This document shows positions 13,239 through 34,890 of a stretch of DNA of 38,290 nucleotides, piece by piece (the first letter of the stretch is position 1; every line of letters starts with the position of its first letter). Below the pieces are notes generated by a model that saw only the letters and a program-made list of their open reading frames with translations, made no database searches and was not told the origin of the DNA. Both the position numbers and the translations under genes were made by a program. Source of the stretch: a virus; the IMG/VR virus record IMGVR_UViG_3300009553_000801, positions 1 to 38,290 of that record; one strand, written 5' to 3'.

Positions 13239-14048
13239 TTAGTAGGCGATTTCGAGGATGCCGTTGACGGCACCCGCGGTGGCGAACGGCGCGCCTGGCG
13301 CGATCTGCAGACGCTGGCCTGCGGTCACGATGGCGGTGGCGTCGCCGGCGGTCGGCTGCGCGGTCACGATCACGCCGGCTGCGGCGCCATCGGCGATCGT
13401 GTTGGTCAGGCCGACGACGGTTGTCGCGGCGCCGCTGATCACGGTGATGTCGCCACCCGTGGTCACCGCCGCCTGGACGATCACCGTATTGCGGATGATC
13501 CGTCCGCTGACCGGCGACACCAGCTGCTGGTTGGTCGGCGCCAGCAGGTCGGTCTGGTTGATGGAATAGGGGATCGCGACGATCCTCTGCCCCAGCGCCG
13601 TCGTCTCGGCGGCCACATAGACCCAGACGCCCTCGGTGCCGACTTCCAGGACGATGCCCGCCATCGCGCGGGTCCCGCCGGCCGAATGCAGCGCCACCGT
13701 TTCGTCATCGACGATGTAGCAGCGGCCGAGGCGGTTCACCGTCGCGATCGCATCGACGCCGGCCGAATTCTTGAAGAGAAAGACGCCCTCCTCGACATCG
13801 ACGGTCGCGCCGCCGTCGACGCCGGTCCCGGTCACCGACGCGCTGAACACGCCGACGGCACGATAGGTCGCCGCATCGGTCTGCTTGGCCGGGTCGTTGC
13901 CGCCCTGGCCGAGCCGGCCCGGCCGCACATAGCCCGATTGCAGCACCGCCAGTCCGCCCTGGTAACAGACCGCGTTCGCGGCGATGCCGCAATTGAGCAG
14001 ACCCTTGCGCGCGAAGCGCTGGACCTTGCGTCCCTTAGCGAGCGCCAT
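13239..14048 (-). CDS. putative capsid decoration/cement protein (gp33 position)
   Basis: A 269-residue protein between the protease/scaffold and capsid genes, the place of Mu gp33. Residues 1-165 contain GGLAVLQSGYVRPGRLGQGG and later YIVDDETVALHSAGGTRAMAGIVLEV, a beta-rich layout seen in small head decoration proteins. Residues 165-269 are Thr/Ala/Val-rich short strands (VSGRIIRNTVIVQAAVTTGG and on), which look like a second beta domain and make it longer than Mu gp33. The start ATG at 14048 overlaps the end of the protease gene by 14 nt. Function inferred from position and fold pattern. Confidence 0.65.
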   Translation of the reverse strand: MALAKGRKVQRFARKGLLNCGIAANAVCYQGGLAVLQSGYVRPGRLGQGGNDPAKQTDAATYRAVGVFSASVTGTGVDGGATVDVEEGVFLFKNSAGVDAIATVNRLGRCYIVDDETVALHSAGGTRAMAGIVLEVGTEGVWVYVAAETTALGQRIVAIPYSINQTDLLAPTNQQLVSPVSGRIIRNTVIVQAAVTTGGDITVISGAATTVVGLTNTIADGAAAGVIVTAQPTAGDATAIVTAGQRLQIAPGAPFATAGAVNGILEIAY

Positions 14049-14580
14049 TCGTCAGTTCCTCGTTCTTGGCCTTCAGGAAATCAGCCTGGTTGAGGCCGAT
14101 CATCTCGCACGCGGCGATTTCGTCGGCGGTCAGCGTCGTGACCGGTTCGATCCGGCGATCGCCGGTCTGCGACTGCGCCGATGCGATTACCGGCGCGCCG
14201 GCCGACCAGCGGTCCCACGCCGAACGATCGACCTTGGCGAAGTCCAGCCCCCATTGCCGATCGGCCGGCGCCAGCTTGCCGCCGGCGATCGCCGCGTCGA
14301 CCGACGCCGCGATCCGATCGCCTTCGAGCGCGTCGAGCCGTCCGCGCAGCTGCTCGAATGTGCCGACCGGCACGAACTTGGTTGGATCGACGGACGTGCC
14401 CGCCGCGCCGATCGCCGCGACGATCTGCGCGGCGGTCGCGTCGGCCGGCAGCTTCAGCGCCGCCGCGATTTCGGGTGCCGGCGTCGATGTGGCCCCGGCC
14501 AGTTTCATGATGGCTTCGAGGATCGCCGCCTCATCGGCATCCTCGGCGAGGCCGAGGGCCATCGCGATATTTTTGAGCAT
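14035..14580 (-). CDS. Z: scaffold protein (Mu gpZ) from an internal start
   Basis: Within the protease gene, residue Met165 (ATG at 14580) is preceded by GGAGAACCC, a good ribosome-binding site. It begins a 181-residue helical protein (MLKNIAMALGLAEDADEAAI) that forms the scaffold, as Z does inside I in Mu. The internal product is expected to exceed the full-length protease in amount. The assignment rests on the site, the domain boundary and the Mu precedent. Confidence 0.7.
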   Translation of the reverse strand: MLKNIAMALGLAEDADEAAILEAIMKLAGATSTPAPEIAAALKLPADATAAQIVAAIGAAGTSVDPTKFVPVGTFEQLRGRLDALEGDRIAASVDAAIAGGKLAPADRQWGLDFAKVDRSAWDRWSAGAPVIASAQSQTGDRRIEPVTTLTADEIAACEMIGLNQADFLKAKNEELTNGAR

Positions 14581-15072
14581 GGGTTCTCCAGCAGCTTCGG
14601 ATGCGACGACAGCGGCCATGTCGATCGCGGGATTGTTGGTCAGGGCCGCATTGCAAAGGAAGGTGACGCGGTTCGCCGCATCGACGTGAAAGACGGGACT
14701 GGTGTAGCGATACTCGCGCGCGGCGATCGCGGCGGCGGCGGCCGGCGTCCATTCCACCGTCCCCCAGATGCCGTCGTCGCGCGCGACCAGGGTCGCCGGG
14801 TCGATCCAGCCCGATGCCGGCGCCGTCGCCCCGGCGATCTTCGCCGCCGCGATCGCCTGGTGATCGAAATCGAAATTGAAGTGCCGCCCGCCCAGGCGCT
14901 GGCGCGTCGCCGCGATCACCCGCGCCGCATGCGCCACATCGTCCAGCCGATACGGCCCACGCCCATCCGACATCCGGATCGTGCCCATAGGCAGCAGCTG
15001 CACCAGCGTCGGCGCCCGCCCATCGGCAAGCGCAATGACGATGCCCGCCGCAATGACGATGTTGGATGCCAC
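14035..15072 (-). CDS. I: prohead protease (Mu gpI) with scaffold domain
   Basis: A 345-residue Mu gpI-type prohead protease with the scaffold at its C-terminus. Likely catalytic region: FDFDH at 67-71 (His71) and YTSPVF at 123-128 (Ser125), typical of the family. Residues 165-345 are the helical scaffold. The start is a GTG at 15072, the first codon after a likely late promoter (dyad at 15156-15171). The protease matures the prohead by degrading the scaffold. No upstream ATG fits. Confidence 0.88.
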   Translation of the reverse strand: MASNIVIAAGIVIALADGRAPTLVQLLPMGTIRMSDGRGPYRLDDVAHAARVIAATRQRLGGRHFNFDFDHQAIAAAKIAGATAPASGWIDPATLVARDDGIWGTVEWTPAAAAAIAAREYRYTSPVFHVDAANRVTFLCNAALTNNPAIDMAAVVASEAAGEPMLKNIAMALGLAEDADEAAILEAIMKLAGATSTPAPEIAAALKLPADATAAQIVAAIGAAGTSVDPTKFVPVGTFEQLRGRLDALEGDRIAASVDAAIAGGKLAPADRQWGLDFAKVDRSAWDRWSAGAPVIASAQSQTGDRRIEPVTTLTADEIAACEMIGLNQADFLKAKNEELTNGAR

Positions 15073-15387
15073 CCGCCCGAATCCCCGATCGTCGGCCGGG
15101 CAAATTGCCCCGCATCGACAAGCCGGTTATGGGCGGGGGCGACAGGCCTCTCTTACCTGAAATATTTCAGGGTCGGCCTTCTTCTCCTCCCCCCCTCGGG
15201 GGGTGCGGTCGCAGGCTCATCCCCCGGATGGGCCAAAGGGCGGTCGCGCCGCCGGGTGAGGGTCTGTTCACCATCGCGCCAATATTGAAAATCAACCGCT
15301 CGCCTGCTATATCCAAACCGAGCCTGCTCCCGTTTCGGACGTTTGGCCCGCGCACATGGTGACATGTCGGCAGCGGTCAGGGCAGGC
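15073..15387. other. 315-nt intergenic region between gpF and protease genes
   Basis: No convincing gene is seen; short frames on the minus strand (about 62 and 70 codons) have no family resemblance and include repeat-derived Pro/Arg/Gly runs. The region holds a very strong hairpin CCCCCCTCGGGGGG (15190-15203), a GCCGGGTGAGGGTC element (about 15251-15264) shared with the early-region repeats, and the activator dyad (15156-15171). The hairpin follows the gpF transcript and precedes the new promoter, so it may terminate the upstream late transcript, although no T-run follows it. Confidence 0.6.
15126..15171 (-). promoter_or_regulatory. late promoter with Mor-type activator dyad (PI equivalent)
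   Basis: The perfect 16-bp palindrome CCTGAAATATTTCAGG occupies 15156-15171. On the minus strand exactly 24 nt separate it from the -10-like hexamer CATAAC (15131-15126), which would give a start near 15119, upstream of the protease/scaffold gene. No good -35 is seen, as expected for an activator-dependent promoter. The same palindrome and spacing recur upstream of the amidase gene at 26 kb. In Mu, activator C drives PI from the same place; here the only recognisable activator gene is mor. Confidence 0.7.
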
Positions 15388-16971
15388 TCAATCTTCCCAA
15401 TACATGGTCTTGATCCACACTTGCTTGCGCGACCGGCTGATCCGCTCGATCACGGTCACGCGCTTGCCGTTGATCGTCCCGCGATAGCGCAGCCGCCGGC
15501 CGGCGCCATCCGCCGCATTGCCCTGCGCGACGATGTCCGTCGTCGATCGCAAGATCTGCGGGATCAATCCAAAATGCTCGGGCTTCAGAACCCGCCGGCC
15601 TTTGCGGGCGGCCGGGGACCCGATGCCATGGCTTTTCAAACTATGCCGGATTTCCTGCGCATTGATCGCGCGGGTGAAGCCGGTCACGGTCTCGCCGGTC
15701 CGCCGCAGGATCTCGGCGGCATTGTCGACCGGCCCGATCACGTGGAGCGTCTGACTGTCGCGCGAAACTGCCGCAGCCATGGCGAACCCGCGCAGCCCGC
15801 GCGCCCAGCGTCCACGTTCGTCGCGCCTTTGCGCTGGATCATAAGCCGCCGCGACGGCGCCACCGATCCGGAACCGCCACCCGATGCCGCCGACATCGAC
15901 CTCCACCGCCCCGCGCCGATACCGGCGCATCAGACAAGCACGGCGCGTCTTGTCGAGCACCCATGCCCAGGCGATCGAGTCCGGCTCGGCGATCGCGCCG
16001 CCCACGAGCGCCGGCACCTCACGCGTCGGACGCCCGAGCGGCAGCCGCAGCACGCCATCCGCCCCGCGAAACCAGCCGGCCGAGATCGCCAGCGGCCACC
16101 CGTCGCGATCGAGGAAGATTTTCTCGCCGCCGGATTCGAGACCGAATGCCGCGAGGAAGCCGCCGATCGCCGCCTCCACCGTCGCGCCGGCCGACGCCGA
16201 AACCTCGCCATCACTTCCGAAACTCTCCGGCAGCGGTGCCGGCGTCAGCGTGTCGAGATAGGCTTCGCCGACATTGAAGGAGAAGCCGGGATCGATTCCG
16301 CGCTCGACGTGCGTCACCTCGCCAGTGCGCTTGTTGAGATAAGGCTCATGCGGGAACGCGATCGGCGCTTCCGTCACGGTCCACCCGCGGCGGGCCATCA
16401 TTCGCGCATTCAACGGCTGCGCGCCGCATCGGCAGCCCCACCCGCAAGGTCCGTAATGCGTCTTCCACCAGACGTGGCCCACCGGCAGGATCGTGCCGTG
16501 CCAGTCATGATGTTCCGGCCGCTCTTTGCCGTCCATGATCGAGACATACCGCAGGAAAGGAAACGCTGCCTTGGTCTGCTGGATGCGCTGCCACCGCCCG
16601 GCCTGATAGGCCGATCGCATGTTGACCTGGTAGATCGTCTTCAGCCGCCGATCGCTGCCCAGCTGCGCCGACACATGCTGCCCCGTCGCCGGATCGACCA
16701 TGGGCCGGCGACCCCACCAGCCACGCTTCTGCAATTTCGGCCGCAGCTGCTTCGTGAATTCCTCGAGCGATTCGCCCTGCTCGAGCGCATCGTCGATCGC
16801 CGATCGTATCTCCTCGAGCAGCGAGACCGACATGGCTTTGGCGACGGTAAACGCCCTGACATGCTCTTCCTGCCAGACGTCCCGCCAGTCGAACCCGACC
16901 CGAAAACCCTTCTTCCGGAAAAAGGCGATCGCCTCTTTCGCGGCGAGCAACGGGATGTCGACGATGCTCAC
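15388..16971 (-). CDS. F: head morphogenesis protein gpF fused to two PBECR nuclease-type domains
   Basis: A 527-residue protein. Residues about 60-210 are the phage head morphogenesis (SPP1 gp7/Mu gpF) domain with the signature DGKERPEHHDWHGTILP and a Cys/Gly-rich GPCGWGCRC. Residues about 285-380 resemble PBECR2 (GWPLAISAGWFRGADG, then EPDSIAWAW and RRYRR). Residues about 408-527 resemble PBECR3 (HVIGPVDNAAEILRRTG, then IRHSLKSHG and LKPEHFGLIPQI). These barnase/EndoU/colicin/RelE-like modules are known from phage polyvalent proteins. The protein may be injected with the genome and act in the host. The GTG start at 16971 lies 4 nt after the portal stop. Domain names are from memory and need a profile check. 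Confidence 0.85.
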   Translation of the reverse strand: MSIVDIPLLAAKEAIAFFRKKGFRVGFDWRDVWQEEHVRAFTVAKAMSVSLLEEIRSAIDDALEQGESLEEFTKQLRPKLQKRGWWGRRPMVDPATGQHVSAQLGSDRRLKTIYQVNMRSAYQAGRWQRIQQTKAAFPFLRYVSIMDGKERPEHHDWHGTILPVGHVWWKTHYGPCGWGCRCGAQPLNARMMARRGWTVTEAPIAFPHEPYLNKRTGEVTHVERGIDPGFSFNVGEAYLDTLTPAPLPESFGSDGEVSASAGATVEAAIGGFLAAFGLESGGEKIFLDRDGWPLAISAGWFRGADGVLRLPLGRPTREVPALVGGAIAEPDSIAWAWVLDKTRRACLMRRYRRGAVEVDVGGIGWRFRIGGAVAAAYDPAQRRDERGRWARGLRGFAMAAAVSRDSQTLHVIGPVDNAAEILRRTGETVTGFTRAINAQEIRHSLKSHGIGSPAARKGRRVLKPEHFGLIPQILRSTTDIVAQGNAADGAGRRLRYRGTINGKRVTVIERISRSRKQVWIKTMYWED

Positions 16972-16975
16972 CTGG

Positions 16976-18640
16976 TCACGCCTGCGGCGTCTCGACCATG
17001 CCCGCGATCCGCGCCCCGAACCCGGCCCGCGCCATCATCTCGCGCACCGCCGAAACGTCCATCCGGTCGATCGCGTCGGCCAGCCCGGCGCGCACCTCTT
17101 CCAGGCTGCCCGCCGACGCCAGGATGGCGTCGATCGGCGTCAGCATCGTCTCCAGCATCGGTTCCCAATCCCCGATGGCCTCTTCCACCGCTCGATCGAT
17201 TCCGTCCGGCTCGCGCGCCACGCTCCGATCCGCACCCGCGACCGGAGCCGAACTGCCCCCAAGAGACGTTTTAAGAGGGTCTAAGAGGGCAGGCGCCGGA
17301 AGTTTCGGGGGGACAGGGCCGGGAGCCGCTCCCTGGCCGCCCTGCGCCGGATTTTGGGGTGCCGCGTCGAGTACCTCTTCACCCGGCTTCGGCTCGGCCA
17401 GGCCGGTCGCCTTGCGAAAGCTCGAAACCCCCACCGGCACGTTCAATTTCACCGCCGCCTCGACCACCGCCAGATAGGTCGTGATGTCCTCGGCCTCGGG
17501 CCGGCCAATCACGATCCGCGGATAGCGCGCGCGCCGGCCGCGGTTGAACGTCACCATCGGAATCACGAGGTCGCGATTCAGCGTCGCGGCCAGCATCACG
17601 GCGTCGGCGCGCTGGATGTCGCCGCGAACGTCGTTGTGGACATTGGCCTGGCCGGAACCGAGCCCGCCCGACTGCGCATCGGTGGTGTTGGTCTGCCCCA
17701 GCACCGCCTTCGAAATCTGTCCGTCGAAATAGTCGCACAGCTGCTTGAACATGTCGGCGCTGGTCGCGCCGCCGCCGCTGGTGATGAACTCGATCAACAT
17801 GCTTTTTGGAATGACGGCGCCGGCGTCCGATCCGATCTGCGCGACCGCATCCGCCAGCTTGTTGATGTCCTTTTCGGACGTGCCGTTGTCATATTTGCCG
17901 ACGCGCAGCGGGAGGCCGTAAACCTCCAAAAACGAGACCCAATCCTTGATCGCGTAATTGGTGAACAGATACGCCCAGGCCACCGCCCGCGCGATCCCGC
18001 CGCGGATCGCGATGCCCGACTTCGCCGGCGCCAGGTGGACGATGAACTTGTTGTCGAGCAACGGCTCCGGCATTCCCGAATCGCCGCGCAGCCGCAGCGT
18101 CTCGCCATCGACCTGGTCGAACTGAAAAAAGCGCGGATCCTGCCGCTTGAGCTTCGCCGGCAGCCACGGCCCCGATGCCGTGTCCCACATGATCTCGGTC
18201 GCGCTATAGCCCTTGCCGATCGCGTCGAGCATATCGAACAATTCGGCCTGCAGCGTGTCGCGCTCCAGCCAGTCGCGCACCAGCTGCGCGTCGGCCTCAT
18301 CCTCGGGATCGTCGCTCGCAGCCTCCACCGTCACCGGCAGCTGCGCGACCGCGCGCTTCCGCACGCCGAGCACCGCCTGATAGTGGAGATGCTTCTCCTC
18401 CATCTCCTCGGCCAGCTCCAGATAGGCGGTCGCATTGCCCTGCTCGGCCGACCGCAGCAGCGATCCCAGCCGTTCCGGCGTCAATCCCTGCGCCGGATGT
18501 CCGGTCATGATCGTTCGCACGCCGGCCAGCGACGGCCCCGCGGTCTCGCGCTTCAGCTCCTCGCGCTTCAGCGGCCGGCCGTTCTTGTCGACCAGCGCCG
18601 GCGGCGTCGGCCCCTGAAACGGTACGATGTCAGTGCCCAT
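16976..18640 (-). CDS. H: portal protein (Mu gp29, DUF935)
   Basis: A 554-residue portal of the Mu gp29 (DUF935) family. The N-terminal region (GHPAQGLTPERLGSLLRSAE) and the block YLFTNYAIKDWVSFLEVYGLPLRVGKYD are diagnostic. GQTNTTDAQSGGLGSGQANVHNDVR lies in the wing/crown. The Pro/Ala-rich tail (about 455-495) is a linker to a helical C-terminus. Twelve copies form the DNA gate at the head vertex. Length is slightly above Mu gp29. It follows terminase with an 11-nt gap. Confidence 0.93.
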   Translation of the reverse strand: MGTDIVPFQGPTPPALVDKNGRPLKREELKRETAGPSLAGVRTIMTGHPAQGLTPERLGSLLRSAEQGNATAYLELAEEMEEKHLHYQAVLGVRKRAVAQLPVTVEAASDDPEDEADAQLVRDWLERDTLQAELFDMLDAIGKGYSATEIMWDTASGPWLPAKLKRQDPRFFQFDQVDGETLRLRGDSGMPEPLLDNKFIVHLAPAKSGIAIRGGIARAVAWAYLFTNYAIKDWVSFLEVYGLPLRVGKYDNGTSEKDINKLADAVAQIGSDAGAVIPKSMLIEFITSGGGATSADMFKQLCDYFDGQISKAVLGQTNTTDAQSGGLGSGQANVHNDVRGDIQRADAVMLAATLNRDLVIPMVTFNRGRRARYPRIVIGRPEAEDITTYLAVVEAAVKLNVPVGVSSFRKATGLAEPKPGEEVLDAAPQNPAQGGQGAAPGPVPPKLPAPALLDPLKTSLGGSSAPVAGADRSVAREPDGIDRAVEEAIGDWEPMLETMLTPIDAILASAGSLEEVRAGLADAIDRMDVSAVREMMARAGFGARIAGMVETPQA

Positions 18641-18651
18641 AAATTCCCGTC

Positions 18652-20310
18652 CTACCAGGCGCCCGGCACGCGCCGCCCATGATCGCGCCGCCGCCCATGC
18701 CGCCGATCGAAATCATCTTCATCATTCGAACCGTCGCGCGTCTTCGGCACGGACCGATAATCGAAGAGCTGCGCCTCGGTGAACGAGGCCGCATTCGCCA
18801 GCGCCAGCGCCGGCGCGAAGTCGCCATGCCGCGCCAGGCCATCGGTGCCCTCGTTCTTCACCCCCTGCGGCACGCGCGGGATGCCCCGGATCATTCGAAT
18901 TTGCTGAAGGTCCGAAACCAGATTGTCGTTGGCCGGATAGAGGAGTTTCCGGCCTTCCAGGCCATCCTTCATCCTCGGCATCCATTTGGCATACCAGGCC
19001 TCGGTCAGCTTGACCGCCTCGATCAGGCTCGGCCCGAACCGCTGCACCGCCACCTCGCCCAGATAACCGCCATTGCCGGTCGCATCGATCTTGCCGCCCA
19101 CGAACCGCGGCAGCCTTTCGGTGACCCAGATCAGCAGCTGCTTCTGCTGCTCATAGGGGACGTTCCGCATCTCGATGACGAACGGCGCACGCCGCGTCAG
19201 GTCCGCCTCGATCGCGAGCGGCACATAGACCGAGGCGTCGCCGTCGCGGGCGAAGTCCTGGCCAAATGCATGCTGCAGCTTGTCATCCAGCGCGGCCAGC
19301 TCGGGCGCGATATTCGCTTCGAGCCACTCCTGGACGAACGCCTCGCGAACCGCCTGGTCGAGCAGCTCGAAGCCCGCCGGACAGCGCAGGGTGAACAGCT
19401 TGTCGGGCGGCACCGTGCACGCTTCGAGCAGCAGCCGGCTCAGATAGACGCCGCTGCCCTGGCCCGGAATGCAGTCCAACTCCTCGGCCGCATTGGCACG
19501 ATAGAGCTTGCGGATGTTCGAGCGCCATTGCGCCTCGCCCTCGGGCGTCCATTCGATCCCGCGCTTGAGACAGACGCGTTGATAGAGCCCGTTCTCGATC
19601 GCGTCGTCGAAGGTGCAGCGAACGACGTTGGCATCCTCGCCATAATCGCCCTTGCGGATATCTTCGAGCAACAGGTTGAACGCATTGTCCGCCCCGTTGT
19701 GCGTCGAGATGACCAGCACCTTGCCGCCCCAGATGATGAAGGCCATCGCCGCCTTCAGCAATTCCTCGGCATCGTCGTGGAACGCGAATTCATCCAGGAT
19801 CACATAGCCCTGCCGCCCCCGCAGCGATCGCGGCCGGCTCGACAGCGCCACGATCTCGAAGCCGGATGCGAAGCGAATGCGGAACGCCTGGATGAACTGG
19901 TCGGGATTTTTGTTGTCGCCTTCGACGTGGAACAGGAAATCGCCCACCTCGCTGCACGCCGGCATGAAGGCCCGCGCCCACATCCCGCACGCGTCGATGA
20001 ACTCGCGCGCCATGTCGAGATTATAGCCGATGTACAGCACGTCCATCCCGCCGGCCGCCATCTGCGCGCCCGCCGTCAGGACCGCGTCGGCGCCGACGCC
20101 CCAGGTCGCACCGATCCGCCGGCTCTTGTCGGTCGCCGTCAGCGAATAGCGCGACGTCGAGGCGAGGATGTCCTTCTGATGCTTCAGCAAGATGTCCGGC
20201 AGCGACTGGCCTTCCAGCGCCGGCGGCAGGCTCTGCATCGCGGCACGCCGGTGCGCGATCCATTCCTCGTCAGTGACGGGGCCGGCATCCGGCTGCGCGA
20301 GCGGTGGCAT
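18652..20310 (-). CDS. E: terminase large subunit (Mu gp28)
   Basis: A 552-residue packaging ATPase/nuclease. The ATPase site is ATDKSRRIGAT at 59-69, an atypical Walker A as in Mu gp28, with Walker B YVILDE at 169-174 and the coupling STHNGADNAF near 202-211. The nuclease half starts with GQDFARDGDAS at 350-360, a first acidic residue D352, and contains KIDATGNGG and HGDFAPALALA as later acidic motifs. ATG at 20310 overlaps the gp27 stop. The last 25 residues are Asp/Arg-rich. Family assignment is firm. Confidence 0.93.
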   Translation of the reverse strand: MPPLAQPDAGPVTDEEWIAHRRAAMQSLPPALEGQSLPDILLKHQKDILASTSRYSLTATDKSRRIGATWGVGADAVLTAGAQMAAGGMDVLYIGYNLDMAREFIDACGMWARAFMPACSEVGDFLFHVEGDNKNPDQFIQAFRIRFASGFEIVALSSRPRSLRGRQGYVILDEFAFHDDAEELLKAAMAFIIWGGKVLVISTHNGADNAFNLLLEDIRKGDYGEDANVVRCTFDDAIENGLYQRVCLKRGIEWTPEGEAQWRSNIRKLYRANAAEELDCIPGQGSGVYLSRLLLEACTVPPDKLFTLRCPAGFELLDQAVREAFVQEWLEANIAPELAALDDKLQHAFGQDFARDGDASVYVPLAIEADLTRRAPFVIEMRNVPYEQQKQLLIWVTERLPRFVGGKIDATGNGGYLGEVAVQRFGPSLIEAVKLTEAWYAKWMPRMKDGLEGRKLLYPANDNLVSDLQQIRMIRGIPRVPQGVKNEGTDGLARHGDFAPALALANAASFTEAQLFDYRSVPKTRDGSNDEDDFDRRHGRRRDHGRRVPGAW

Positions 20311-20873
20311 CAGCCGACGCCCAGGATTTCGCGCTTGATGGCATCGACCGTGTCGCGCGTCAGGCCGCCCTGCACCTTCTTCGCCACCTTCTCCACGGCT
20401 GCGGCAGCCTCGGCCTTGGCGGCATCTCTGGCCTTTCTCACCGCCTCCTGAATCGTCTTCCGCGCACTCGCCAGGTCGCGCAGCGCGGTCGCCAGCGCCT
20501 TCACCTCACCCGCGTTTTCCTTATCGTCCTCATCATCGCGCTGCCGCGTCACCAGGCGAAGAATGGACGTTTGCAAGAGCTCAATATTCAGCTCCGCCGT
20601 CCGATCGTCGCTGTCGGCGCCGGTCGCCGCCCGCAGCGCGAGCGCCATGTCCCGGCTCTCGCGGATCTCCGCGCCGATCTCCTCGATGCTCTTGACGTGC
20701 CGCCCCAGCGCCGATCGCGAGATCGTCTCCGCGCCCTGGCCGATCGAGCGCAGCCGCTTCAGGATTTCGTCGATCGTCCAGCCATGATCGATGCGCAGCT
20801 TCCCGATCAGATCCTTGATCTCTGGATCGAGACGATCGACGCTCGACGGCTGGCGCCGCTGCGGCCGACGCAT
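20310..20873 (-). CDS. gp27-like protein, probable terminase small subunit (DUF3486)
   Basis: A 187-residue DUF3486 protein, as Mu gp27. N-terminal RRPQRRQPSSVDRL with LIGKLRIDHGWTIDEILKRL, then SRSALGRHVKS, looks like a DNA-binding HTH module. The rest is a long helix rich in Lys/Ala. The ATG at 20873 overlaps the gp26 stop (ATGA). The small-subunit role is inferred from position just upstream of the large terminase and from the DNA-binding pattern. Confidence 0.88.
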   Translation of the reverse strand: MRRPQRRQPSSVDRLDPEIKDLIGKLRIDHGWTIDEILKRLRSIGQGAETISRSALGRHVKSIEEIGAEIRESRDMALALRAATGADSDDRTAELNIELLQTSILRLVTRQRDDEDDKENAGEVKALATALRDLASARKTIQEAVRKARDAAKAEAAAAVEKVAKKVQGGLTRDTVDAIKREILGVG

Positions 20874-21169
20874 CAGAGGCCCAGATGCGGCGAGTGGACG
20901 CCGCCGATCTCGATGTCGCCGGCCGCCGCCATCCGCCCGCGCTCGGTGATCCGCGCGACCATCACCGTGTCGCGCACCATCTCGGTCACCACACAATCGC
21001 GCTTGGCCAACTCGCGCAGCATCTCGCGCACGCCGTCCTGGTCGAGCGACTGCCGATGACCGATCTCGCGCATCGCCGTCGTCAGCGTGCCGTCGTTCGA
21101 TCGGCCGCCATCCTCGATCAGCAGCTGCAGAAGCGCGAGCCGCCGCTTCGCCAGGATGTCCTCGCGCAT
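20873..21169 (-). CDS. gp26-like winged-helix protein
   Basis: A 98-residue protein in the Mu gp26 position. The sequence (ILAKRRLALLQLLIEDGG, then SLDQDGVREMLRELAKRDCV and VARITERGRMAAAG) has a winged-helix layout with a beta wing near the C-terminus. The ATG at 21169 is preferred over the upstream GTG at 21178 because GGTGAG sits 6 nt before it. It may help terminase bind DNA or regulate late functions. Conserved in Mu-like phages without known activity. Confidence 0.85.
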   Translation of the reverse strand: MREDILAKRRLALLQLLIEDGGRSNDGTLTTAMREIGHRQSLDQDGVREMLRELAKRDCVVTEMVRDTVMVARITERGRMAAAGDIEIGGVHSPHLGL

Positions 21170-21170
21170 G

Positions 21171-21551
21171 CTACTCACCCCCCAGCGCCTTGCGCACGAG
21201 AATACCCTCGATCCGCTGCACCATCGCCTCCACCCGACGCGTCGCGCCGCCCCAACCCTCGATCTTCTGGTCGAGCACGCCGATCTTGCCTTCCAGTTCG
21301 GCGATCTCCACCGACGATGCCCCCGCCTCCTCGATCCGCTCCACCTCGCCGCGCAGCCGGTCGAGATCGGATTTCGAACACGCGCCTTCCAGCTTGGCGT
21401 CGATCGCCTTCACCTCGGCACCGACGGCCGTCAGCTGCCGCTGCAGCGCGCCCGTCCCCACCGGATTGGCCCGCCCGCCGCGCCAGATCTGCGAAGCCAG
21501 GCCGACCAGGATCACGATCGCGATCAGCCACTGCAATTGCTCACTCATCAT
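21171..21551 (-). CDS. gp25-like membrane-anchored coiled-coil protein (DUF2730)
   Basis: A 126-residue DUF2730 protein (Mu gp25). Residues 7-22 (QWLIAIVILVGLASQIW) are a single membrane helix, followed by a long amphipathic coiled coil (about 38-120). An N-in anchor and a helical rest fit a spanin-like or lysis-linked role, but no spanin signature (lipobox, SAR) is seen. Ribosome-binding AAGGG precedes the ATG at 21551. It overlaps the holin-like gene by 11 nt. Confidence 0.82.
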   Translation of the reverse strand: MMSEQLQWLIAIVILVGLASQIWRGGRANPVGTGALQRQLTAVGAEVKAIDAKLEGACSKSDLDRLRGEVERIEEAGASSVEIAELEGKIGVLDQKIEGWGGATRRVEAMVQRIEGILVRKALGGE

Positions 21552-22011
21552 CGGAACCCTTCTTGATCCATTCGCCTGCGGCCGCCGTGCGCGCCGCGAT
21601 GAAGATCCTGATCAACGATCGCGCCAGCGTCAGCGCGCCGGCCGCCACCAGCTCGATGAACGCCAAACCCGAATATCCGAGCCCGATCGACCACCCGAGC
21701 GCCACCAGCGGCTGCCGCTGGCCGTTGATCACCAGCGCCAGCACGCCCAGCGCCAGCAGCGCCGTCAGCGCTGCATTGCCCGTCCGGCCGAGCCGCGCGC
21801 CCGCGTCCGAGGCTGGCGCCACCCGCCGCGCCATCAACAGGCCGATCAAACCGAACAGAGCCGGCAGCACCGGCACCGCCTCGCCGAAGACGATGATCTC
21901 CGCCGGCCCGAACGCCGGCACCGTCGCCGTCGCCACCGACGCCAGGCTGGCGAGCCCCGCGCCGATCGCGCCGCCCGCCAAGGGACGGAGGATGGTCGAG
22001 AGCTGGATCAT
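21541..22011 (-). CDS. multi-spanning membrane protein, putative holin
   Basis: A 156-residue protein with about four hydrophobic stretches: residues 8-30, 38-60, 83-100 and 108-130. A charged, short C-terminus (EWIKKGSDDE) follows. Its place near the amidase and before gp25 makes a holin role plausible. No named holin family is recognised and the length is larger than simple class II holins. Its ATG lies 74 nt from the divergent plus-strand zinc-ribbon gene. Confidence 0.6.
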   Translation of the reverse strand: MIQLSTILRPLAGGAIGAGLASLASVATATVPAFGPAEIIVFGEAVPVLPALFGLIGLLMARRVAPASDAGARLGRTGNAALTALLALGVLALVINGQRQPLVALGWSIGLGYSGLAFIELVAAGALTLARSLIRIFIAARTAAAGEWIKKGSDDE

Positions 22012-22085
22012 GTCGCGAGACTCCGCGCGGGGAGATTGCTGTTGCAGCGCAGCGTCGTTACGCTTGCGAAAAGGGAGACGAACAT

Positions 22086-22265
22086 ATGGCCAGAGACATC
22101 CTGCTCGACATCCTGCACGGGCCGCTTCACTTCGTGCGTGCCCATATCGCCCAATGGCGCTTGGAACGCGCTCGGGCCGACGCCGGACGCTGCGAGCATT
22201 GCGGGGAGTCGATCGACGGCGCAGGTTTTCTCTGTCCCCCCTGCTCGAAATCTGAAGCTTGGTGA
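22086..22265 (+). CDS. small zinc-ribbon protein on the opposite strand
   Basis: A 59-residue protein on the plus strand inside the minus-strand late region. The ribosome-binding site GGGAGA lies 8 nt before ATG 22086. Four cysteines form CEHCGES-x6-CPPCSK (two CxxC pairs), a clear zinc-ribbon/treble-clef pattern; the N-terminal 35 residues are helical with several Arg. It is divergent from the holin-like gene and convergent with the tail-spike gene. A weak promoter (TTGCTG at 22036, TACGCT at 22059, 17-nt spacing) lies upstream. It could be a moron expressed in the lysogen. In Mu the small zinc protein Com regulates mom, but I do not see direct homology. Confidence 0.75.
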   Translation: MARDILLDILHGPLHFVRAHIAQWRLERARADAGRCEHCGESIDGAGFLCPPCSKSEAW

Positions 22266-22267
22266 CA

Positions 22268-25200
22268 TCAGATCATCACCAGGTCTGACGGCGACGCCAT
22301 GCTGCAAAGGCTGCTATCGATCCACGTCGGCAGATAGACGTCGCCGCCATCCCCCAGATTGCGGCCCGTCGCCCAATCCCCCCAATACCCGAAATTGTAG
22401 AAGAACGGCGTCAGACCGCTTACGACGCCGCTGGCGCCGAGATCCTTGGGTGTGTCGAAGGTTGCAGCCGCACAAAACGCGTCGCGGTTCGCCTGATTGG
22501 TGAAGTCGAAACTGTCGTCGATCATCCACAGCGATTTGATGTCCATGTTCGTCAGCGGCAGCGCGCTCGATCCGAACAGGTTGACGATCGACTGAATGCC
22601 GACGATCGCATCGGCTGTCGGCACCGCCGTGACAGCCGGCTTGTCGTTGACCGCCGCTTGGCAGCGCTGCACGCCCGTCGTCGTGTCCACTGTCATGAAA
22701 TAGAGATTGTAGCGATCCGGATAATCCGCCTGTGGAGCCGTCGCCGAGGCAATCGACGTGCCGGCCGAGGTCCGCGGGATGAACCGGAACGACTTACTCA
22801 AGACATTCGCCCACGCCCCCGACCCGATCAGGCCCCCGGACGCCCCCGTCAGGAAGCGCGCGCAAACCACGATCGTGAATTTCTTGCCGTCCGGTGCATT
22901 GGCGAAGCCAGGCGTGCCGAGCAGCTGCATGCCCGTTCCTTTGAGCCGCATGCCGCCCAGCGCCGGGTTGGTCCCGTCCATGCCACGCACCAGCGTGCGC
23001 CGGCCGATATGATGGCCGAAGTGGTGCCGCGCCTCGATGTAATAATCGCGGCTTTCGAACGTGAGTGCGCCAGCGCCTCGCTTGAGAGCGCCGGTCGCCC
23101 CATCGATCCGGACCGCGTCGTCGGCAACCGACCGGAACAAGGCGCAATGCCTGGGCGTCCCGGCAATCCGCGCCGGCACGACGATGGCGTCCGCCGCATC
23201 GCCAGTCCGGATGACGAACACCTTCCGCTCCGGCTGCACATAGGGCTGGCTGATCTCCATCGCGCGGACGAGACGGGCCTTCTCGCGGGCGCCAGGCTCC
23301 GCGATCGGATCGTCATAATGCGTCGAATCCGCCATGATCGACAGTGGCATCCCGCCGACCATCAACGAGTCGAGATCGCTCTTGCTGCGCGAGCTGACAT
23401 ACGGATGGAACGCCGCGTAATGATCGAAGAAATTGGCGCCGAATGCAGTGCGCATGAGCGCCGCCAGCTTCGAGATCGTCCCGAAATTGCGCGACCCGAC
23501 GATGCCGGTCTGGCCGCCCCAGAACATCTTGCGCGAATGCGTGATCGCATCGAACGCCGCCTGATTGACGGCCATGATCGCGGCCGTCTGATCGCTGGTG
23601 TCGACATTCGGTTGATTCGTTGGATTGAGATTGTTCGTGTCGAGGCCGACGATCGCGCTTTCGAGCTTCTGGGTGGCCGACCAGGCGATGATCCGGTCGC
23701 GGATTTCCTGCGCGGTCTGGCCGCTATGGCCCTTGTTGTTGACGGGAGTCTGCAGCCAGGCCTGCATCAGGTCTGAAGTCCGGTCATAGACAAGGTCGGC
23801 GTCGCCATTGCCGCCATTGAGCGGCCCGATCTGGGTCTCCTGTGTCGTGCTGTCGCCCGTCACATTGATCCGGCCGACAACGATCCAATATGCATCGCCG
23901 AAGACGGGATAGGTCGGCGGTGCATGGCCGGTGCCGGTCGCCCCGCGATAGAGCCACACATAACCCTGATCGGTGCAGCATTGATTGGCAGCCGCGATAC
24001 CATCGGCGCCGGCACTGTATAGCGTCACCGGATTATATGGCAGTGCGGTCGCATAGGCCTCGCCCGGCGCCGTCAACGTCGCCGCGGGCCACGGCGCGAT
24101 GGCAAGCGGATAGAGCTGGCGCGACATCGCCAGGGCAGCGTCGTTGATCCGCTGCACCTCCATCATCGTCATGACCTCGGCGGTCTGTGCCTGGGCCGTC
24201 GTCGTCGCGCCGATCGACGCCGTCACGTCTTCCAGATCGAGCACGTCCGTCGTCCGGATCGTGGCCGCACGGAACACGATCTGTTGGGCGACGGTGGCGG
24301 CCGTCCACGTGCCCGTCACCGTCGAAGCATGATAACGGCCGCGCAACCGCTGATAAAAGGCCGTCACCGTCGTGCTGGCGCGGTTCTGCGACACGCTGAC
24401 TTGATAGGTCCCGACACCGCCCGTTCCGGGGCCGCCAATGATTTGTGTGCCGGCGGAAAAGCCCGCGCCGGTGATCGTCATGCCCACCGCCAGCGCGCCC
24501 GACGTCACGGCCGTCACGTCCAGCGTCGTGCCGGTGATCGACCCGGTGACCACCGCATTGTTGATCGTCGCGCGATAACCATAGTCGATCGTCGTGCGCG
24601 CGCCGCTGCCGCCCGCGCCGTCATTGCCGTCGAGCGTGACCATGTACGTCTTGCCAACGGCGACAACGACGGGCTGCGCCAGCGACAAAAGCGGGATGGT
24701 CGCCTCGGCGATCGCCGCCGCACCGGGTACGATTCCGGCGGCGGCTGGCGTGATGTTGATCGTCCGGATCGACGCCGTGTAAGGCGCGGTGCCTGGCGCG
24801 GCGGTATCGACCGTCGTGCTCGACGTATCGACCTCATAGATTTCCAGCCGCAGGTTCGCACAGCCGACCGGGACCTTGATATCAAACCGGATCGAGTCGA
24901 TCACTGCACCGACCGCGAGATCCACGCCGGCATCCATCGCGACGCCGATCCAGGCGCGCGTCGTCACCGTCGCCTCGCTCGATTTCCCCGCGAAGGTGTC
25001 GAAAGTATCGGCGGTGCCGATCAGCGCGCCCAGCCGCGCCGATATCAGCGGCGCGTTCACCTGGGTGGCGGCGACGATCGTCTGATCACGATAGCCCAGC
25101 GTTTCGGTGCGGAGCGTAGCAGTCTGATCGCGCAGCGCCGTCGTGTCGGCCACTTCGAGATTACCGAGGCGCTTCCAGCCCTGCGCAACCAGCGAATAAA

Positions 25201-25675
25201 CGCCCTCATTGTTGACCATCGCCGCGCTGACCGGGTCGCTATGCTGCGCGGCGTCCGGCCCATAGACCTTGGCGCCCTTGCCCAGCAGCAGCTTGCTTTT
25301 GTCGACCGCGTCGAGCTCGGCCCACGTCGCGACCGCGACGACTTCGCCGAGTCCTTGCGTCAGCGCCTTTTCCAGACCCTGGACGCGAGAGAAATTGACG
25401 TCGTCACCATTGGCGCGCGCCAGAATTTCGTCACCCAGCCGCGCATCGAGCGAATTATAGCCAACCTGGCGCCCCTCGGTCTCCTGCGCAATCGCTTCCA
25501 TGGCCGCGGCATCCCCCGCGATCCGAGCCGCAGCCTCGCCATCGATCCGCACGCCCAGCGCATCATCCGCCGCCACCCGCGCGCCCGCCTCGGTCGGCAA
25601 ATCGGCCTTCAGCGCCGCAACATCGGCTTCGAGCCCAATCAAGCCCGACGGCGTGCTATCCGGAAACGTCGGCAT
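22268..25675 (-). CDS. large tail-spike/fibre protein with SGNH hydrolase and lectin-like domains
   Basis: An 1135-residue protein starting at ATG 25675, overlapping the amidase stop. Residues 1-110 are a helical, Ala/Asp-rich attachment stretch. Residues about 375-440 hold a beta repeat ([16 protein letters not shown]). Residues about 605-790 resemble an SGNH/GDSL esterase: GDS at 607-609, a Gly/Asn block GLDTNN at 677-682 and DSTH at 783-786. Residues about 930-1060 look like a concanavalin/LamG-type lectin domain. It probably deacetylates or cleaves surface polysaccharide during adsorption. It lies between the amidase and holin genes, far from the other tail genes. Confidence 0.8.
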
Positions 25676-26133
25676 CAGCGCAGCCCCAGCGAGGCGATCC
25701 ACTGCCGAACATCGAAACTCGGACACGCCTTCAGCCACTCTTTCGCGCTGACCACCCCGTCGCCATCGCGATCGGGGCTCAGATCGCGGTGCCCCATGAA
25801 TTCCGCTTCTGGATATTGGCGATGGAGATCGCGCGCCAGGACGCGCATCGACGCCAGCTGCGGCTCCGTCCGCGTATCCGCCGGACGGCCGTGCGCGTCG
25901 AGACCGCCAGCGTAGCAGATGTGCAGCGAGTCGGAATTGTGGCCGAACACGCCGGCGCCAACGTCATTGTCCGCCCGGCCGATCTCGATCAGCCCGTTGA
26001 GCCGGATGAAGCGATGATAGCCGACTGTCCGAAAGCCCCTGTCCTTGTGCCAGCGCGTCACGTCGGCGATCGTCACCGGCACGCCGGCGCGCGTGGCAGA
26101 ACAATGAATGACGATTTTGTTGATTTTGCGCAT
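25675..26133 (-). CDS. endolysin, N-acetylmuramoyl-L-alanine amidase with EF-hand-like loop
   Basis: A 152-residue Amidase_2 (T7 lysozyme-type) enzyme that cleaves the bond between muramic acid and the stem peptide. Zinc ligands are probably His10 (IVIHCSAT), His115 (GHRDLSPD) and Cys137 (KACPSFD); Tyr39 is the likely catalytic tyrosine. Residues 121-132 ([12 protein letters not shown]) match an EF-hand calcium loop. The ATG at 26133 is preferred over a GTG at 26163. No signal peptide is seen, so export needs a holin. It is the first gene after a predicted late promoter at 26160-26206. Confidence 0.92.
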
Positions 26134-26159
26134 GTCCCGCCCGCTCTTTTGAGGGGGCG

Positions 26160-26206
26160 ACACTAGGCGCGGGGAGTGGCTTGCCTTTCCCTGAAATATT
26201 TCAGGG
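26160..26206 (-). promoter_or_regulatory. late promoter with Mor-type activator dyad (Plys equivalent)
   Basis: The 18-bp perfect palindrome CCCTGAAATATTTCAGGG lies at 26189-26206, just past the mor stop. On the minus strand, 24 nt separate the 16-bp core from the -10-like hexamer TAGTGT (26165-26160), the same spacing as at 15 kb. It would start transcription near 26153, in front of the amidase ATG at 26133. No T-run follows on the minus strand, so it is not a terminator. The paired occurrence is the main evidence. Confidence 0.72.
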
Positions 26207-26213
26207 TCACCGG

Positions 26214-26597
26214 CTAATCAAACATGCGGATTTGATCCGGGTCTTCATCCGCCGCCGGCTCGGTCGCGAGGATGTTGTAGACCTGCCGCTCGGATAGTCC
26301 AACGGCGAGCGCGATCGCCTGCCGCGTCAACCGGCCCGTCTCCGCCAGCCGCCTGACCAGCGCGTTGCGCGCATCGACCTTGGCCACATAAATCTCTGTG
26401 CCGTGATAGTGATCGACCAGCTTCACGGCATGTTCGATCCCGATCGCCACGCTGATCGGGTGATGGTGGCCGAGCTTGGGGGGGACGTAGAGCTCGATCC
26501 CCCCAAACGCCGCCGCGAGCTTGCCGGCAGCGTCCTCGCCGATCACCGCGACGATCTCGTCCCAGCTCGAGCTGGATGATGCCGGCCTGGACGCCAT
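26214..26597 (-). CDS. mor: Mor family transcription activator
   Basis: A 127-residue Mor/C-type activator. The sequence (WDEIVAVIGEDAAGKLAAAFGGIELYVP) with the later GTEIYVAKVDARNALVRRL and the HTH (TRQAIALAVGLSERQVYNIL, about residues 88-107) is diagnostic. It acts as a dimer on an inverted repeat overlapping the -35 region of phage middle/late promoters. ATG 26597 overlaps the preceding gene stop (ATGA). No separate late C activator is found, so Mor may drive late genes directly through the dyads at 26.2 and 15.2 kb. Confidence 0.92.
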   Translation of the reverse strand: MASRPASSSSSWDEIVAVIGEDAAGKLAAAFGGIELYVPPKLGHHHPISVAIGIEHAVKLVDHYHGTEIYVAKVDARNALVRRLAETGRLTRQAIALAVGLSERQVYNILATEPAADEDPDQIRMFD

Positions 26598-26773
26598 CAG
26601 ATCAGCGCCAGCACCTGGGCGACGATCGACACCAGGCCGACGATCGCCAGCGCGTCGCGGCACAAGGGCAGCCAGAACGGCCGCCGCGCCGTGCTGCCGA
26701 CCAGCGGCAGATCGAACCAGGCGAGGTTTGCCTCGGGCGGCCGATCGATATGGACGATCTTCGGCGCGCTCAT
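26597..26773 (-). CDS. 58-residue protein with C-terminal membrane helix
   Basis: A 58-residue open frame, ATG at 26773 overlapping the gemA stop (ATGA) and its own stop overlapping mor (ATGA). Residues 1-38 are hydrophilic with Pro/Arg and Trp; residues 41-58 (LAIVGLVSIVAQVLALI) form one membrane helix ending at the C-terminus, a tail-anchor layout. Unknown function; perhaps a regulator or lysis-timing component made early. Translated because of the double overlap. Confidence 0.75.
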   Translation of the reverse strand: MSAPKIVHIDRPPEANLAWFDLPLVGSTARRPFWLPLCRDALAIVGLVSIVAQVLALI

Positions 26774-27447
26774 GACGCCGCCCTCAGCTTGGCGCCGAGG
26801 CCGGCCGCGACGATCGTCAGCGTCCCCAAAGGCCAGATCACCGGCAATATGCCCTCCGGCCGCTCGCCGAGCAGGTCGAACGCGGCCCGCTCCAAGTCCC
26901 AGTCCGCCGGCACCAGCTCCTTCGCCTTGAGCTTGTAGAGGATCGCATCACACAACCGCGCCTGCAGCACGCGCGTCGGATCGGCCTGCCCCAGCCCGGC
27001 AATCGACTGCCGCCACCCATGCCGCTCGGCGATCGCCTTGAGCGCCTCGATTAGCTTGTAGCAGTCCGCCTGGCGCATCCACGCCATCTTCTGGACCTTC
27101 AGTTGCCGCGCCGCGAACGCCTCCAGCGCCTGCTCGGCGGCATTCTCGATCGCGCCGAGCTGGTAGAGCGAGATCCACATCGCCCGCGCCTTCTTCGCCG
27201 CCGGATGGTCCGCTTTCCGCGCCGCATTGACGCCGTCCCGCGACCGCATCCCCTTCGACGCGAAATGATTGATCACGTCGCGCAGCTCGGCATCGGTGCA
27301 ATCGGCGGCGCTGCCCTTGCCCGTCACCAGCATCAGCGAGCCACGATACGTGTCGTCGTCGAGCAGAAGCTCTTTCTTCGCGACATGCACCTTGGCGATC
27401 AACTGCCGCCGATAAGGATTGGCCGGATATTTCGGCTGCGCACTCAT
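26770..27447 (-). CDS. gemA: GemA-like regulatory protein (Mu gp16)
   Basis: A 225-residue DUF1018/GemA family protein. Typical blocks: LIAKVHVAKKELLLDDDTYRG at the N-terminus, then AKKARAMWISLYQLGAI and HGWRQSIAGLGQ. GemA in Mu modulates host gene expression and DNA supercoiling early in infection. The ATG at 27447 overlaps the stop of the preceding gene (ATGA). The C-terminal 35 residues are hydrophobic (PVIWPLGTLTIVAAGLGAKL), possibly a membrane-associated tail, longer than in Mu. Confidence 0.9.
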   Translation of the reverse strand: MSAQPKYPANPYRRQLIAKVHVAKKELLLDDDTYRGSLMLVTGKGSAADCTDAELRDVINHFASKGMRSRDGVNAARKADHPAAKKARAMWISLYQLGAIENAAEQALEAFAARQLKVQKMAWMRQADCYKLIEALKAIAERHGWRQSIAGLGQADPTRVLQARLCDAILYKLKAKELVPADWDLERAAFDLLGERPEGILPVIWPLGTLTIVAAGLGAKLRAAS

Positions 27448-27662
27448 GATGTCATCCTCTTGATGATCCGAAAACTCTGCTCGACCGCAGAAAACAACTC
27501 GGCCGCCGCCTCGCGCCGCACCGCGCGATCGTTGGACGTGACGCGATCGAACAGCCCGTCGAGATCGATCGAGCCACACGCCGTCGGCAGCCGCACATCC
27601 TTGAACTGCGGCCAGCCGATGTCGCGATCGCTGTCGATCGACACGAGATACAGCCGCGCCAT
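27444..27662 (-). CDS. small hypothetical early protein
   Basis: A 72-residue protein starting at ATG 27662, which overlaps the TGA of the tiny gene upstream. A short beta-like N-terminus (MARLYLVSIDSDRD) is followed by a helical C-terminus (VRREAAAELFSAVEQSFRIIKR). No family is recognised. Coupled by overlaps to the B-side gene and gemA. Confidence 0.72.
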   Translation of the reverse strand: MARLYLVSIDSDRDIGWPQFKDVRLPTACGSIDLDGLFDRVTSNDRAVRREAAAELFSAVEQSFRIIKRMTS

Positions 27663-33339: not shown

Positions 33340-33590
33340 GACCGCACCTGATGCGGATGATGTTGCCGGATCGCCGCGAGCAGCGCGGCCGACGCCGACG
33401 CGATATTGTCGCGGTTCGGCCCCTTGGTGTCGGCCGCGCCGCAATATTTCAGCTGCCGCCGCACCTGGTGAAGGGTGAACCCGGTCTCCGCCGCGATCGC
33501 GGAGACGCTGAGGCCCCGATCATAGGCGTCGAGGATCGCGTGCTGCATGGGCGACAGACCGCACACATGACTGGCGGGCCACCGGCTCAT
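33336..33590 (-). CDS. small helix-turn-helix protein
   Basis: An 84-residue protein, ATG 33590 overlapping the ParB-like gene's stop. Residues 12-48 (LSPMQHAILDAYDRGLSVSA, then IAAETGFTLHQVRRQLKYCG) form a clear HTH of the sigma-region-4/recombinase type. A short helical tail follows. Probably a DNA-binding accessory or regulator. Confidence 0.75.
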   Translation of the reverse strand: MSRWPASHVCGLSPMQHAILDAYDRGLSVSAIAAETGFTLHQVRRQLKYCGAADTKGPNRDNIASASAALLAAIRQHHPHQVRS

Positions 33591-34654
33591 GCGACACCTT
33601 GGATGGTGTGGAGCATCTGCTGCAGCTTGCCGGCCGCATCGAGCAGCGCGTCATCGTCGGTCGGATCGCCATCGAGCAGCCCCGTGAGCACCGCGAAACC
33701 GGCATTGAGCGCGGCGAGCATCTCCGCCCGGTGCTGGCCGTGCCAAAACGAGGTTCCGGCCGGCAGCGGCAGCTGCTGCAGCGCCCCATGCCGCTCGCTC
33801 AGCGTCATGCGCTGAAACGTTCCGACAAACGTCGATAGGCGCTTGTCCTCGGGAGAGCTGACCAGCCGCGTCTTGTCGCGCACGAGCGCGACCGCTTCCG
33901 CGACCGATTTGACCGGCCCAACGCCGTTTGTGTGCGTCCGCCACGTCAGATATTCGACCGCCTCGGCCTGCTCGCGCGGATCGAGCTTGGCGAGCGCGCG
34001 CAGCTGGGTCGCGTTGTTGGCAACAGGATGACGATCGGCGCGGAGCTGCTCGATCAGCGACGGCGAAATGCGCCGGTACAGCAGCAGGTCGTTGCGCACC
34101 GTGCGCTCCGAAAGGCCGAGCTGCTCGCCCACCTTGGCGTCCAGGCCATATGCGTCGGCAATCGTTGCCGACGCATCGGCGGCATCGAGCGCCAGCGTCT
34201 TCTGCCAGCGCGCGTTCGCCGCGATCTGCTGCGCCGACGCTTCGGTATCGACGCCGCATTTCGCCTTCAGAAGGCTATGAATTTCGGCGATGAAGGCGGC
34301 GCGATCCATCGGATCGAGCGCCTTGCGCCACAGATTTTCCGAGACTTCGCGCATGCGCCGGTCGGCGCGATCCGAACTGACGATGATCGCCTTCAGATAC
34401 TCGATGCCCTCGGCGCGCGCGCCTTCCAGCCGGTGACCGCCGGTGACCAGCGTCCAGTGCGGCCGGCCGGGCAGCCGGCACACTTCGATCGGCGTCCGCT
34501 GGCCCTCGCGCGCCATGATCGCGCCCAGCGCCGCCGACCAGACCGGATCGACCGGCCGCAGCCGGTCGCCCAGCTCGATATCAGTCACCCGGATCGAGAC
34601 GATGGACTCGACGTCATTCGCTTCGAGCACGTCATTTGCAGGAGCCGTCGCCAT
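33587..34654 (-). CDS. ParB/RepB-like nuclease-domain protein
   Basis: A 355-residue protein with a ParB N-terminal domain: LVTGGHRLEGARAEG (residues 69-83, box replacing GERR) and SENLWRKALDPMDRAAFI (105-122). HTH (YGLDAKVGEQLGLSERTVRN) near 170-190. A C-terminal helical part follows. ParB-like genes are common early genes in some transposable phages, where partition is not needed; a DNA-bridging or gene-regulatory role is inferred. ATG 34654 overlaps the previous stop. Confidence 0.85.
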   Translation of the reverse strand: MATAPANDVLEANDVESIVSIRVTDIELGDRLRPVDPVWSAALGAIMAREGQRTPIEVCRLPGRPHWTLVTGGHRLEGARAEGIEYLKAIIVSSDRADRRMREVSENLWRKALDPMDRAAFIAEIHSLLKAKCGVDTEASAQQIAANARWQKTLALDAADASATIADAYGLDAKVGEQLGLSERTVRNDLLLYRRISPSLIEQLRADRHPVANNATQLRALAKLDPREQAEAVEYLTWRTHTNGVGPVKSVAEAVALVRDKTRLVSSPEDKRLSTFVGTFQRMTLSERHGALQQLPLPAGTSFWHGQHRAEMLAALNAGFAVLTGLLDGDPTDDDALLDAAGKLQQMLHTIQGVA

Positions 34655-34890
34655 CAGCAGGCCTCCCGTGCATGCGTGATGGTTTCGCGCAGACGGTCGG
34701 CCTGCGACTTGACGAGGTCGCGAAAGCCGGGGCGGACCGCTTTGCGCTCGCACATCACGTCGAGCATTGCGCAAAGCTCGATCGCAGCATCCCTGAGATC
34801 GCGGGTCGCGGTCCTATGCCACCGCACTTCGTCGAACAGGTCCGCCGCAATCGGGCTGAGATCGCGGAGCGAGGGCTTCAGCTCGACCAT
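34654..34890 (-). CDS. hypothetical early protein
   Basis: A 78-residue mainly helical protein (LSPIAADLFDEVRWHRTATR, then IELCAMLDVMCERKAVRPGF). It starts at ATG 34890, two nt after the ner stop, and overlaps the ParB-like gene. No family recognised. Confidence 0.7.
   Translation of the reverse strand: MVELKPSLRDLSPIAADLFDEVRWHRTATRDLRDAAIELCAMLDVMCERKAVRPGFRDLVKSQADRLRETITHAREAC

Follow-up and report, generated by a model that had tools for sequence, protein, structure and literature searches.

A palindrome common to two late promoters of a Mu-like phage, the probable site of a single Mor/C-type activator

The stretch of DNA analysed here (the window) is a virus record of 38,290 bases with the gene order of phage Mu, and it raises the question of why one 16-bp palindrome, CCTGAAATATTTCAGG, stands in front of both the lysis genes and the head protease gene. 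The order is transposase, B protein, GemA, activator, dyad, amidase, Gp27, terminase, portal, MuF, dyad and protease I, and the genes around both dyads lie on the minus strand (Table 1). We compared the order gemA, activator, lys with that of Mu and found that the two agree. Our analysis indicates that the two palindromes are very likely activator sites that fire both late operons, through the whole of the one-step mechanism proposed below.

Table 1. Positions of the two dyads, the promoter elements and the neighbouring genes in the window
Feature	Position	Strand	Remark
GemA-like gene, directly upstream of the activator, end of the early operon	26770..27579	-	Pfam GemA 4.5e-29
Mor/C-type late transcription activator (phrog_836), single copy	26214..26597	-	phrog_836 E=6e-24
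Putative activator dyad CCTGAAATATTTCAGG, lys late promoter	26190..26205	.	Exact copy; same in close relative L037/G001
-10-like hexamer TAGTGT, lys promoter; start predicted near 26153	26160..26165	-	24 nt after dyad; offset kept in relatives
Endolysin (N-acetylmuramoyl-L-alanine amidase), first gene of lys late transcript	25675..26133	-	Amidase_2, phrog_822
Putative activator dyad CCTGAAATATTTCAGG, I late promoter	15156..15171	.	Exact copy; one-mismatch form in close relative
-10-like hexamer CATAAC, I promoter; start predicted near 15119	15126..15131	-	24 nt after dyad; offset kept in relatives
Mu I-type head maturation protease/scaffold, first gene of I late transcript	14035..15072	-	Mu-like_Pro, phrog_328

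The amidase was assigned by its matches to Pfam Amidase_2 (4.6e-10) and phrog_822 (3e-55), and the protease/scaffold by Pfam Mu-like_Pro (6.9e-68) and phrog_328 (1.9e-70). For the amidase, the ATG at 26133 is the most likely start, and is preferred because the GTG at 26163 would fall within the -10. Between the amidase and the terminase region lies an ORF of 1156 aa (22268-25738, minus strand), which would belong to the lys late transcript; it matches nothing in Pfam or PADLOC, and its one match, to phrog_21413 (1.2e-12), is short. The MuF protein (15388-16971, minus strand) carries a C-terminal PBECR3 nuclease-like domain at residues 418-524 (E=5.5e-7, just under the Pfam cut-off), and the early region encodes a ParB-like partition protein (33587-34774, minus strand; phrog_3264, 5e-33).

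The palindrome occurs exactly twice in the whole window, where 0.02 matches are expected by chance. A third copy was not found at up to three mismatches on either strand of the entire 38-kb sequence, consistent with the claim of an earlier note that the dyad is confined to the gaps before the amidase and the protease/scaffold gene. A scan of the window for the half-sites CCTGA-N6-TCAGG with up to two mismatches gave 22 matches against 13.7 expected, which is near chance, and only the two dyad sites matched perfectly. The lys-site dyad begins 8 nt past the stop codon of the activator gene.

The same note had described a distance of exactly 24 nt between each dyad and its -10-like hexamer, and this distance was found at both sites. 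Both hexamers are weak, with TAGTGT matching TATAAT at 3/6 positions and CATAAC at 4/6. The absence of a -35 was upheld for the I site, where a consensus scanner found no sigma-70 -35/-10 pair in the region 14900-15400. When the hexamer is taken as -12 to -7, the dyad centre falls at -44.5. Mu Mor binds a 16-bp dyad that spans -51 to -36 (centre -43.5), and its promoter has a -10 but lacks a -35 (PMC4390567, PMC4287176). The window shows this arrangement of a 16-bp dyad near -43.5 (here about -44.5, also at the lys site) and a -10 without a -35.

The gene directly upstream of the lys-site dyad matches phrog_836, annotated as 'late transcriptional activator'. Its start is most likely the ATG at 26597, which gives a protein of 127 aa; residue numbers below follow P0001, the 149-aa ORF 26214-26663. 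Its match to Pfam Mor is at E=3.7e-4 and 20.9 bits, under the gathering cut-off of 24.9. Both Mor and C of Mu are members of a sister family, phrog_532, and have phrog_836 as their second match (1e-10 and 2e-11). The sequence profile of the activator reached the Mu Mor structure 1rr7 at E=0.0035 and Mu C at 0.017, and hhalign of A3 gave 90.7% for Mu Mor and 73.8% for Mu C, a link that concerns mainly the helix-turn-helix (HTH) half. The AF2 model (pLDDT 88) has a C-terminal HTH, with the recognition helix S-E-R126-Q-V-Y129-N130-I-L. Foldseek returned no significant match for this model, and 1rr7 was absent among the 50 best matches listed. Since Mu Mor is absent from these best matches, homology to Mor/C rests on the profile matches, mainly in the HTH half, and these place the protein in the Mor/C family.

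The window yielded a single Mor/C-type gene, in agreement with the earlier statement that a Mor-type protein is the only recognisable activator. We scanned the window ORFs of at least 60 codons with the activator profile, compared ten early-region ORFs with PHROGs, and found no second activator in either set. Thus, no division between a middle activator such as Mor and a late one such as C, as in the three-phase cascade of Mu, was found in the window.

The earlier note had also suggested a search of related prophages for dyads before lys and I. Single-protein searches with the activator or the portal each returned only one close relative (L037/G001), which has about 90% DNA identity with the window over the core. 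This relative carries the exact lys dyad, and its I dyad has one mismatch, CCTGAAATACTTCAGG. An exact-dyad search of viral contigs gave 34 matches, most of them unrelated AT-rich or enterobacterial-looking sequences; the close relative and a fragment, L020, were the only relevant ones. Only 41 bases of L020 can be aligned to the window, and it is otherwise unrelated. In this fragment, the exact palindrome (652-667) precedes the ATG of a Mu I-type protease by 38 nt, and CAACGT follows the dyad at a distance of 24 nt.

The activator alignment was too variable to serve as a search query. We fetched about 160 portal-containing loci, and used profiles made from these same sequences to locate the activator and I genes. 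The activator lay upstream of the I gene in 108 loci, 100 of which remained after duplicate removal. In 31/100 phages, the best 16-mer common to the post-activator gap and the pre-I gap was identical at 16/16 positions, while none of 800 mispaired genome combinations reached 16/16. The dyad words differ among phages (CCTGACATTTGTCAGG, CCGCAAGCGCTTGCGG, GGGCGCAACGTTGCGCCC, CCCCGGAACTTGTTCCGGGG and many more), and are mostly palindromic.

In all, 98 related Mu-like phages were found to carry a phage-specific dyad common to the post-activator gap (before lys) and the pre-I gap. We used 65 of them for finding rules, and held out the other 33, whose activators share less than 90% identity with the first set and among themselves. 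From the first set, the low-plausibility pairs L049, L116, L138 and L141 and the near-duplicates L144 and L178 were removed by hand, and L041 was dropped in later steps as a copy of the close relative of the window; no removal by hand was made in the held-out set. About a third of the loci with both genes gave no accepted, convincing dyad pair by this method. The acceptance score of at least 27 for a dyad pair corresponds to only the 90th percentile of the mispaired controls. Because related phages share dyads, this sharing-plus-symmetry score is weakened against such controls, which in part explains that percentile, and we therefore put weight on exact 16-mers, on the position of the -10 and on covariation with the helix.

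The dyads in relatives had been picked by sharing and symmetry only; the -10 offset and the helix covariation had no part in the choice. When the relatives were aligned on the dyad centre, A was found at +34 in 79% and 68% of the phages at the two promoters, and T at +38 in 56% and 58%. The pattern NANNNT occurred at +33..+38 in 34/66 and 35/66 of the first set, compared with means of 1.8 and 1.6 and maxima of 6 and 7 at other offsets. Among the held-out phages, the corresponding counts were 24/33 at each promoter against other-offset means of 0.8 and 0.6. Since the enriched -10-like hexamer of the relatives has this same offset at both promoters, the 24-nt spacing in the window is not a chance reading of a hexamer. 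The comparison shows the shared dyad with its fixed -10 offset as a predicted general late-promoter architecture among related Mu-like phages.

Palindromes after one gene and before another might also be intrinsic transcription terminators, here of the activator gene and ahead of I. The RNA hairpins of the dyads fold, the lys-site dyad lies a median of 15 nt past the activator stop codon in relatives, and at least five T within 10 nt after the dyad were found in 17/65 sites at each promoter. However, a terminator needs no identity between the two sites, no fixed 24-nt distance to a -10 and no helix covariation. The distance from the I site to the upstream stop is very variable (10-90% range, 16-318 nt), and the I-site region of the window has no terminator-like site. 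We thus regard terminators as a very unlikely reading of the palindromes, although in some relatives the dyads could double as terminators. L106, L110 and other Rhodobacterales loci have T-rich DNA such as GTGTTTT after the dyad, and there the site may also terminate the activator gene.

Promoter sites of the activator, the reading we prefer, gain further weight from the protein itself. Across the activators, covariation was strongest between residue 126 and base -5 of the dyad and between residue 129 and base -6, and both residues are located in the recognition helix. Both pairs stayed at the top among phages less than 60% or less than 50% identical outside the HTH. After clustering at 40% (23 phages), residues 126 and 129 still led, but 126 paired with base -4. 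As a control for shared ancestry, columns of the I protein gave a comparable z in one low-information column only (MI 0.25 versus 0.87 and 1.06 bits).

Pooled over the 98 phages, the pairs read as simple rules. A Y, F, W or H at residue 129 goes with T at -6 (21/21), R129 with G at -6 (38/50) and D129 with C (8/9). For residue 126, R goes with G at -5 (28/28) and V with C or A (33/33). Phylogenetically independent pairs, taken on the I-protein tree, agreed in 8/8 cases for residue 129 and in 6/7 for residue 126. The window obeys both rules, having R126 and Y129 in the helix and T-6 and G-5 in the half-site. Compared with gene order alone, the covariation makes a stronger case that the activator is the binder. 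It is very probable, judging from these comparisons, that the phrog_836 activator binds both sites and turns on the late genes directly, with the geometry of Mu Mor/C.

The covariation also bears on whether the dyads are operators of a phage or host repressor that silences the late genes in the lysogen. A perfect palindrome is the typical shape of an operator, and a putative repressor-like protein is encoded in the early region. But the dyads are placed near -44.5, without overlap of the -10 or +1, and no copy is present in the early control region, where an operator of a repressor would also be expected. Since every phage lineage has its own dyad, whose sequence covaries with the helix of the activator, we find a repressor operator exceedingly unlikely, and return to activator sites as the favoured reading.

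Among known systems, Mu C with its promoters Plys, PI, PP and Pmom offers one of the closest layouts that we compared. In both phages a Mor/C-type activator is encoded just upstream of lys, and the promoters before lys and I depend (in the window, by prediction) on a dyad, with no good -35 and a weak -10. Mu differs in that two activators act in turn, Mor and then C, and in that C serves four promoters, whereas one activator and two sites were found in the window. Furthermore, the window dyads are perfect and identical in sequence, and its activator belongs to phrog_836, in contrast to phrog_532 for Mu. When Mu was used as a positive control, the shared-dyad scan of Plys against PI gave no comparably strong dyad by this score. 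Mu Mor at Pm resembles the window in that a 16-bp dyad (centre -43.5 for Mor) replaces the -35 directly after the activator gene (PMC4390567, PMC4287176). Pm drives the middle operon that contains C, while the equivalent position in the window would drive the lysis and head genes directly.

Pseudomonas phage D3112 (L352/L353) likewise has, in the stretch viewed, one annotated 'late transcriptional activator' after GemA. Its post-activator gap and pre-protease gap have 18/20 bases in common. This shared element is a poorer palindrome than that of the window, and the I region of D3112 also holds accessory genes including an anti-CRISPR; AcrF2 is encoded just upstream in the same late region. Thiobacimonas phage ThpS-P1 was stated to lack Mor (PMC5488378). 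We found a phrog_836 activator gene in this phage (L042, 4292-4681; 1.4e-19) and a dyad common to its lys and I gaps. Two loci, L283 and L262, each hold two activator-type ORFs, and are possible Mu-like two-activator phages.

The earlier note had proposed that a Mor-type protein carries out both middle and late activation, serving a middle promoter as well as the two late ones. In support of this version, any middle phase would need the one Mor/C-type gene of the window. In addition to the lack of a third dyad in the window, 63/65 relatives had no further match to their own dyad (up to two mismatches) in the fetched locus, a part of the prophage of about 21 kb, and the two extra matches seen among the 65 phages are at chance level. 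With no further site in the window or in these relatives, no middle promoter is visible, and we consider the double role quite unlikely. The shortened cascade with one activator fits our results, and only this middle-and-late role falls away. The other part of the proposal, that the dyads are late-promoter activator sites placed like those of Mu Plys and PI, was retained, with a Mor/C-type protein as the very probable binder on the evidence of the helix covariation, the 98 phages, the held-out data and the independent pairs. The activator is thus, as far as its sites indicate, the predicted counterpart of Mu C and not of Mor, in a one-step cascade.

Based on the sites, their spacing, its conservation, the covariation and the lack of further sites, all established from sequence, we propose how both late operons may be fired. 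We infer that a dimer of the activator would occupy the 16-bp dyad of each promoter, with the centre at about -44.5 relative to the predicted start, and stand in for the missing -35 contact. Host sigma-70 RNA polymerase, recruited or isomerised by the bound dimer, would then use the weak -10 at 24 nt, so that the lysis/head operon (Plys) and the protease/capsid/tail operon (PI) would fire together. The activator itself would be supplied by early transcription through gemA, giving a cascade of one step, from early to late. In each half-site, residue 126 would read base -5 and residue 129 base -6, and every lineage would keep its own dyad sequence, in step with the recognition helix of the activator that it encodes. 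We consider it possible, rather than probable, that each lineage holds a private activator/site pair under this residue-to-base code, so that co-resident prophages would not trigger each other. If so, the private pairs would amount to a natural library of activators and promoters that are orthogonal to one another.

Already known are Mor/C activators, lys and I promoters that depend on C, and Mu-like phages with a single 'late activator'. In the literature that we searched, mostly outside subscription journals, we found no earlier report of a private palindrome at exactly two promoters, of its group-wide fixed spacing or of the residue-to-base code. With our findings, a 'late activator' gene known by annotation only becomes part of a predicted activator/promoter pair, whose sites and spacing are defined, whose DNA-recognition code can be read, and which can be tested with reporters. 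The findings also provide a simple route to the late promoters of unannotated Mu-like prophages and, as genetic tools, many activator/promoter pairs that differ from one another. Taken together, the data present a clean case of a transcription factor and its sites changing together, in which the factor would have only two targets.
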